Positions 38,107 to 61,656 of a stretch of 64,000 nt of DNA are shown here, piece by piece. The notes below the pieces were generated by a model, which saw nothing but the letters and a program-made list of their open reading frames with translations, was not told the DNA's origin and searched no databases. The position numbers and the translations under genes are program-made. The stretch comes from Sphingomonadaceae bacterium (GTDB taxonomy: Bacteria; Pseudomonadota; Alphaproteobacteria; Sphingomonadales; Sphingomonadaceae). The DNA is taken from positions 186,001 to 250,000 of the forward strand of contig RFPL01000002.1 of the NCBI GenBank assembly GCA_009926135.1, given 5' to 3'. Every line of letters starts with the position of its first letter. Position 1 is the first letter of the stretch.

Positions 38107-38478
38107 TCAATCGTCGATGCGGGTCAGCGACTCACCGTCGAGCTTGCGGTAAAAACAGCTCGGCGCGCCCGTATGGCAAGCAGGACCTGCTGGCCGCACG
38201 ACCAGGACCAGCGCGTCCTGATCGCAATCAACCCGAATTTCCTCAACGCGGAGGACGTGCCCCGAAGTCTCCCCCTTCATCCACAGCCGCCCGCGCGAGC
38301 GTGAATGAAAGTGGGCAAGACCCGTCGCCCGCGTCTGCGCCAGCGCTTCGGCATCCATATGGGCTAGCATCAGGATTTCACGGCTGTCAGCATCGACCGC
38401 TACTGCAGTCAGCAGACCGTTGGCGTCAAAACGGGGTTGGAACACTGTGCCCTGCTCGCGGTCGTCAATCTCGGTCAT
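38107..38478 (-). CDS. hisI: Phosphoribosyl-AMP cyclohydrolase
   Basis: [43 protein letters not shown]. Confidence 0.97.
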
Positions 38479-38539
38479 GGTGCTCCCTTGTTGCACGATA
38501 ACCACATGTGTCGACCAAAATCTGCACGGCTCCAGCTTC

Positions 38540-38750
38540 GCCCTTTGCAGCGCGTCATTCTTCGGAGAAAGAAGTGCTGCGGAAAAGCAAACGGCCCAGG
38601 TTCAGGGACCAAGGCCGGCTCCCCGGATAGGTGAGCCACCGCATGAGGGATTGGCGAGGTGGTCAAAGGGGGACTGCCTAATCGCGCAAGCGGCGCCTAA
38701 AAGTTTCGTCACGAGGACGCCCGGAGCCCAGCTCCGGGCGTTTTCGTTTT
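38540..38750 (+). ncRNA. Candidate structured small RNA, family not recognised; 5' end approximate
   Basis: Intergenic between two minus-strand genes; consecutive hairpins including CGGCC-CA-GGT-TCAGGG-ACC-AA-GGCCG, GGCTC..GAGCC and CCACC..GGTGG, ending in a plus-strand intrinsic terminator. Confidence 0.6.
38718..38750 (+). terminator. Rho-independent terminator on the + strand
   Basis: CGCCCGGAGC-CCA-GCTCCGGGCG followed by TTTTCGTTTT; no T-tract in the minus-strand direction. Confidence 0.85.
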
Positions 38751-39490
38751 CAGACAAGGTCGAGGGCTTCGTCCAGAACGCGGGCAAAGCAAGCAATCTG
38801 GACCTTGGCTGCGCCGGCCCGTTTCAGCGCCTTTACGCAGGTCTCGCTGGTGGAGCCACTGGTCAGCACATCGTCGATCAGCAGGACCGACTTACCCTTG
38901 ATTTGCGCCGCCCGTGAGGGATTGATCGCGATTGCCCCGCTCAACGCCCGCATTCGCGCCGCGCGGCCCAGACCGCCAAGCATCGGGGTTGCCTTGCGGC
39001 GGACCAACCCATCGACGAGCAGCGTGGCACCGGTGGCCCGGGCAATCTCGCGCCCCAGCAAGGCCGACTGGTTGAAACCACGCCGCCACAGCCGCCAACG
39101 GTGCAATGGCACCGGGACGATCACCCAATTCGCATCCACCGCAGGCAATTTGGCGGCAATCAGTCTTGCAAGCAGCGGCGCCAAGGCGATGCGGCGACCA
39201 TGCTTGAAGGCCAGGACCAAGCGGCGCGAGCCTTCGGTATATAGCGTTGCCGCCGCGATCCCGTCATGCGCGGGCGGATTTGCCAGACAAGGCGCGCACA
39301 GCATATCGTCTGGCGCGCCCTCCCCGAATGGCCGCTGGCACGCAGAGCAGCAGGGCTCCCCCGGGATGGCTAGTTCTGACCAGCAGCTAGAACAGAGCCC
39401 GCCCTGACTGGCCAGCGCCTCGCCGCACAAGGGGCAGCGCGGCGGAAAAACGAGGTCGACGAGCGGAGCAAGGGCGGCAGGGACCTGCAT
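38750..39490 (-). CDS. ComF family protein (phosphoribosyltransferase fold)
   Basis: Zinc-ribbon CPLCGEAL..CSSCW..CSACQRPF..CAPC; PRPP motif VLLIDDVLTSGSTSE. Confidence 0.94.
   Translation of the reverse strand: MQVPAALAPLVDLVFPPRCPLCGEALASQGGLCSSCWSELAIPGEPCCSACQRPFGEGAPDDMLCAPCLANPPAHDGIAAATLYTEGSRRLVLAFKHGRRIALAPLLARLIAAKLPAVDANWVIVPVPLHRWRLWRRGFNQSALLGREIARATGATLLVDGLVRRKATPMLGGLGRAARMRALSGAIAINPSRAAQIKGKSVLLIDDVLTSGSTSETCVKALKRAGAAKVQIACFARVLDEALDLV

Positions 39491-61580: not shown

Positions 61581-61656
<76 letters not shown>

Follow-up and report, generated by a model that had tools for sequence, protein, structure and literature searches.

A conserved structured RNA gene between hisI and comF of sphingomonads and its candidate partnership with suhB/MmgR-type small RNAs

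The question raised by the locus studied here is whether the region between hisI and comF, in a 64,000-nucleotide stretch of sphingomonad DNA (the window), encodes an RNA of its own and, if so, what such an RNA would act upon. According to the ORF list of the window, the gap spans positions 38479-38749 and both flanking genes lie on the minus strand, which is what the original prediction stated and what the sequence and gene calls bear out. The plus-facing terminator claimed for this gap is real: the sequence CGCCCGGAGC-CCA-GCTCCGGGCG-TTTTCGTTTT runs up to 38750 and has its U-tract toward the plus strand. It was absent from the list given by a simple terminator scan of the window, probably because the U-tract pairs with ACGAGGACG and is swallowed by the stem. 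The gap folds better than each of 200 dinucleotide shuffles (200/200; z -3.8 for 245 nt and -3.7 for 171 nt), and its conservation far exceeds chance. The other part of the original proposal, a non-coding RNA of about 200 nt on the plus strand, is supported by a conserved terminator and strong compensatory covariation, as well as by a position kept in two unrelated gene contexts and the lack of a conserved ORF or an Rfam match. Judged from sequence, the gap almost certainly contains a real, structured and previously uncatalogued RNA gene conserved across sphingomonads, representing a new structured RNA family. The elements of the locus are as follows.

38107-38478, minus strand: hisI (start codon complementary to 38476-38478); divergent neighbour, conserved context, outside the RNA
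38750-39490, minus strand: comF; convergent neighbour, conserved context, outside the RNA
38523-38748, plus strand: putative RNA gene, proposed from conservation, structure and terminator; the 5' end is placed only approximately, at 38520-38570, and the 3' end coincides with the U-tract

The original prediction could not assign the RNA by eye to SRP, 6S, RNase P or tmRNA. A scan with all families of Rfam 15, among them SRP, tmRNA and the alphaproteobacterial ar families, gave nothing over the gathering cut-off, whether for the gap, for 20 homologs or for 20 proS-type loci (see below), with the one exception of a tRNA neighbouring a proS-type locus. The best weak scores, those of sX6 (12.7 of 40 bits) and SorX (29.1 of 46.6), were driven by the terminator. 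The sole Rfam match in the window was a tRNA gene at 61581-61653. 6S RNA (RF00013) resembles the window RNA in being structured, conserved and about 180-200 nt long, but it was rejected: the gap had no match at E up to 5, nor did the homologs at E up to 10, and the 6S candidate of this genome lies elsewhere (C2:31711-31878, minus strand, equivalent to L031 1501-1668; 37.4 bits against a cut-off of 46.4). That candidate is flanked by zapA and the gene for 5-formyl-THF cyclo-ligase, as is classical for 6S RNA, and the Rfam 6S model may under-detect sphingomonads. RNase P RNA (RF00010) was likewise ruled out, the copy of this genome being located at C35:1356-1782 (299 bits). A literature search on a hisI-comF RNA or on Sphingomonas sRNAs returned nothing relevant. 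As an independent gene with its own predicted terminator and no conserved reading frame, the RNA has the sequence characters of a trans-encoded bacterial sRNA.

Two conserved stretches were recognised within the gap, an upstream block and a 3' core. A DNA search of 150 relatives matched the core in 74 genomes, all of the same genus as the window, which we judge to be Novosphingobium from the named records sharing the block. The order hisI-RNA-comF was kept in all 28 loci (28/28) with both neighbours in reach. The core comprises the following features.

38641-38748, plus strand: 3' core of about 110 nt, located by covariance model
38643-38651, plus strand: conserved ATGAGGGAT motif preceding the junction, from the core alignment
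38653-38698, plus strand: three-way junction in which P2 encloses hairpins P3 and P4
38653-38656 with 38694-38698, plus strand: P2, two-sided compensatory change in 5/5 pairs
38658-38664 with 38672-38678, plus strand: P3, with the G-rich loop AAAGGGG, two-sided change in 6/6 pairs
38682-38685 with 38690-38693, plus strand: P4, with a GCAA loop, two-sided change in 4/4 pairs
38704-38713, plus strand: near-invariant TTTCGTCACG, directly 5' of the terminator
38715-38750, plus strand: intrinsic terminator, stem ACGCCCGGAGC/GCTCCGGGCGT, prolonged into the U-tract

In the genus-level alignment A1 (29 cores), the three-way junction has AGGGGG in the P3 loop and an often GNRA-like P4 loop, and is followed by TTTCGTCACG and then by the terminator. 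In this alignment 93.6% of cells pair, compared to 41-48% when the partners are slid, and two-sided changes occur in 15/28 pairs. In an alignment of 48 sequences from many genera, 97.1% of cells pair (∼96% for P2, P3 and P4), two-sided changes are seen in 24/28 pairs, including all those listed above for P2, P3 and P4, and the covariation score reaches 0.597, versus 0.209 for shuffles and at most 0.110 for slid controls. It should be noted that the 48-sequence alignment was fitted to model R1 and A1 was not; therefore, the figure of 15/28 is the more independent one. Compensatory change in the hisI-comF gap of relatives, the check proposed with the original prediction, is thus strong in both alignments. 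From the hairpin set proposed at that time the terminator is the sole conserved member; GGCTC/GAGCC, CCACC/GGTGG and GGCC/GGCC are unconserved and fall in variable parts of the sequence, and the GGTGG strand is part of the covarying helix P3 rather than of a CCACC/GGTGG hairpin. In three loci (L039, L050 and L055) P4 is missing and the junction is reduced to a simple stem, with P2 and P3 kept. In predicted folds, the unpaired fraction is 0.46 for G-runs and 0.23, half as much, for other Gs.

The second conserved stretch lies upstream.

38488-38522, plus strand: conserved block TTGTTGCA-C-GATAACCACA-N9-CAAAATC, taken as the promoter or control region of the RNA
38543-38546, plus strand: CTTT, a fixed 20 nt after CAAAATC; control-region element or near the 5' end of the RNA

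In the block, TGTTGCA is followed by GATAACCACA; nine variable positions then separate GATAACCACA from CAAAATC, and a further twenty separate CAAAATC from CTTT, all at fixed spacing. In 54 loci TGTTGCA is invariant (first T in 89%), with zero indels through to the CTTT 20 nt downstream. The block pattern was found in at least 119 records, nearly all of the named ones belonging to Novosphingobium and Erythrobacteraceae genera; in 115/119 TCGTCACG lies no more than 420 nt further downstream, and 110/119 contain both hisI and comF. Only one perfect copy is present in this genome (the 59-bp region 38488-38546, with its rigid spacing and invariant heptamer), on which ground a regulon motif was rejected. 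A similar block was also found at proS-type loci. The block was assigned to the RNA because its position follows that of the RNA, not that of hisI: it accompanies the RNA to proS and other sites, and the idea of a hisI promoter was therefore rejected. A sigma-70 promoter, with TTGNNN and TANNNN as -35/-10 elements 17 bp apart, was not detected on either strand, and the block does not fit the sphingomonad sigma-A consensus used for comparison (PMC7566282). We take it as a putative control region, from which the RNA would be transcribed, matching no recognisable sigma factor consensus or promoter class. The original prediction had the RNA initiate near the start of hisI, and the location of the conserved block (38488-38546) would fit this.

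The distribution of the RNA was followed with covariance models. The core was located at the hisI-RNA-comF site in all Novosphingobium and Erythrobacteraceae loci checked. Of 401 genomes from the GTDB family of the window, 318 had a match to model R1 at E up to 0.1 and about 145 (hand count) at E < 1e-8. The best 30 R1 loci all lie between hisI and comF (30/30), while among 20 weaker matches nine are divergent from proS and two are at hisI/comF. The proS-type homologs carry a block of the same kind, G-rich loops, CGTCACG and a terminator. Five homologs from further genera (L193, L195, L196, L203 and L205) were observed at neither hisI/comF nor the tested proS; at a different location, these show a block of similar type together with G-rich loops and TCGTCACG, suggesting at least one additional genomic site. 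Two matches, L202 and L207, look like chance terminators; R1 matches outside the GTDB family are weak, and the inspected one (L202) is of this kind. Second, minus-strand R1 matches were rejected as RNA copies, since they represent the palindromic terminator. As most of the inspected weak in-family matches are real, the RNA is family-wide and occupies at least two genomic contexts. The block and the RNA travel together between these sites. In the clade with the hisI-type arrangement (Novosphingobium/Erythrobacteraceae) we observed only weak matches to the proS-adjacent, alphaproteobacterial-type ProS, suggesting that this enzyme is absent there and that a different prolyl-tRNA synthetase is used; the context change of the RNA may go with the change of ProS.

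One proS-type homolog may correspond to an RNA that has been studied experimentally. The homolog of Zymomonas mobilis lies at L198:1343-1603, between proS and pyrG-secG-tpiA, and has neither the hisI context nor the Novosphingobium junction. The Pdc protein of the homolog-bearing genome is 100% identical to the query Pdc sequence, whose gene we take to be ZMO1360. The tpi gene is ZMO0465 (PMC13224032, PMC6989614), and the cloning primers of the tpi paper (PMC13224032/PMC6989614) match the region of the homolog. Scaling from tpi and pdc places the homolog near 445-480 kb of ZM4, on the plus strand. The sRNA Zms6 is located at 454669-454972, plus strand (PMC6970203); it was detected by Northern blotting, is induced by ethanol and binds the sRNAs Zms4 and Zms16 (PMC7064620). 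From its position and strand the Zymomonas homolog may well be Zms6; if so, the homolog is a validated sRNA that binds Zms4 and Zms16.

In other Alphaproteobacteria, a scan of the regions upstream of proS detected suhB/MmgR RNA, and for this reason suhB was tested as a pairing partner. suhB/MmgR (RF00519) is an alphaproteobacterial sRNA present in the same genomes: it was over the cut-off in 39 of 43 sphingomonad genomes, with two copies in the genome of the window (G000). It differs from the window RNA in its C-rich, opposite motif, its 77 nt model and its structure, and the window RNA has no RF00519 match.

Complementarity was found in two proS-type lineages, over a stretch of ∼20 nt. In a family of the same order (f5), the proS-divergent intergene contains GTGGCCCACGCTCAGGGAGGAA or a near variant, and the majority of loci read there also have a terminator; GTGGCCCACGCTCAGGGAGGAA resembles GTGGCCCAGGTTCGGGGA and GCGGCCCAGGTTCAGGGA of Novosphingobium. 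The f5 suhB sequence TTCCTCCCTGAGCCTGGGCCAC is complementary to GTGGCCCACGCTCAGGGAGGAA of its own RNA at 21 of 22 positions, with duplex energies of -35 to -46 kcal/mol (z -4.4 to -8.4). In the genus g107 (G386), suhB CATCCTCTCCTGAACTTCCGGCC is largely complementary to GGCCGGAAGTCCGGGGAGGA of its own RNA (z -3.3 to -5.6 across the genus). Own-genome pairs beat shuffled controls in all nine f5 and g107 genomes (9/9; z -3.3 to -8.4), which makes suhB/MmgR a likely partner in these sister lineages. Since suhB differs between f5 and g107 and the RNA differs alongside, the result argues for real pairing, although matched pairs in g107 were not systematically better than swapped ones. Significant own-suhB complementarity was not found in the proS-type Zymomonas, g83, g104, g50 and g115.

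In the lineage of the window the corresponding site is the following.

38599-38608, plus strand: motif GGTTCAGGGA, whose matching place in other sphingomonad lineages is antisense to suhB RNA

The sequence GGTTCAGGG was found in 43 of 60 loci. With suhB CATCCTCTCCCAAAACTT and RNA AGGTTCAGGGA, a duplex of UCCC/GGGA and AACUU/AGGUU is possible around a 2×2 mismatch. The predicted energies were not above those of shuffled sequence (mean z -0.22, 20 pairs), the window RNA pairs better with suhB of other families (-28 to -33 kcal/mol) than with its own (-16 kcal/mol), and a longer suhB region including the hairpin gave no signal against hisI-type RNAs. Several Novosphingobium genomes have at least two suhB/MmgR copies, with neighbouring copies in G437 C3 and G324 C23 (also L288 and L296). 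The clade-specific suhB core of Novosphingobium, CATCCTCTCCCAAAACTT, replaces the CCTCCCT of other Alphaproteobacteria.

As the RNA keeps a stretch complementary to suhB/MmgR in sister lineages, pairing with small RNAs is its probable mode of action. In the proposed model, the gap would encode a stand-alone, plus-strand, non-coding RNA with a regulatory role, about 200 nt long and equipped with a control block and a terminator of its own. The RNA would act in trans, base-pairing through its conserved G-rich motifs GGUUCAGGGA, AUGAGGGA and AAAGGGG; its partners would be C-rich small RNAs of the suhB/MmgR type, for which it would serve as a sponge or an antagonist. The best explanation, one we favour by a modest measure, is therefore a Sphingomonadales RNA family outside Rfam acting as a trans-acting sponge of such sRNAs. 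Since the energies in the lineage of the window do not exceed those of shuffles, pairing with C-rich sRNAs is claimed here with moderate confidence only, and whether the window copy would still be a sponge or partner of suhB-type RNAs we regard as evenly balanced.

The most serious rival accepts a trans-acting sRNA and differs in its targets: the G-rich loops would pair with C-rich mRNA stretches, the ancestral suhB pairing having been lost and replaced in the hisI-linked lineage. The 20 hisI-type pairs without significant own-suhB pairing agree with such a change, as do the frequently unpaired G-runs and the three-way junction, which exposes a G-rich loop in this lineage. However, GGTTCAGGGA, the suhB-pairing site in other families, is kept in most hisI-type loci, and the hisI-type genomes still have suhB copies; on this evidence we consider a switch to mRNA targets rather unlikely. 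The exposed G-rich loops could also be read as sites for a protein, as in CsrB/RsmZ, where repeated GGGA loops bind and sequester a regulator. Repeated G-rich loops are common to both, several of them in the RNA studied here contain GGA/GGG, and the AGGGA of the window copy fits ANGGA. A CsrA protein (PF02599) was nevertheless not found in this genome, in which control profiles were detected, and what is kept across genera is the G-run and not the ANGGA form, so the motif of the family is not that of CsrA. Protein sequestration of this type is very improbable.

The site beside hisI and comF is kept throughout the clade, as would be expected of a cis-acting element or an antisense RNA for these genes, such as a leader or the by-product of a divergent promoter. 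Against this, homologs with a like block are found next to proS, and some genomes have them at neither of the two sites; moreover, the terminator is directed away from hisI and reaches no further than the end of comF, and overlap with either coding sequence amounts to the last bases at most. We give this explanation hardly more than marginal weight. Short plus-strand frames are present as well, and the transcript might be an mRNA for a small protein; but the longest frames differ in place and length among homologs, the spacings between motifs are spread over all three frames (13/26/21), and the variation pattern is that of paired bases, which leaves a small ORF with next to no probability.

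With the sponge of suhB/MmgR-type sRNAs as the preferred reading, a parallel is offered by sRNA sponges such as SroC, which acts on GcvB: the window RNA would likewise pair with and sequester another sRNA. SroC is an mRNA fragment, whereas the window RNA is an independent gene conserved across an order. The two are unrelated, SroC being an RNA of Enterobacteria (PMC7064620). We also put forward, tentatively and as the less probable version, an order-wide RNA family dedicated to antagonising suhB/MmgR, which would be mobile together with its control block and would co-change with its target. The Novosphingobium/Erythrobacteraceae form would then have been remodelled to a three-way junction with new partners, and Zms6 would be the sole experimentally known member.

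Degradation and biofuel work makes wide use of sphingomonads, yet little is known about their regulatory RNAs. The analysis has brought to light a family-wide RNA with a defined structure and a conserved putative control region of no recognised promoter class. Its candidate direct partner, suhB/MmgR, is present in nearly every genome checked, and through Zms6 the RNA family has a candidate link to an ethanol-tolerance sRNA.
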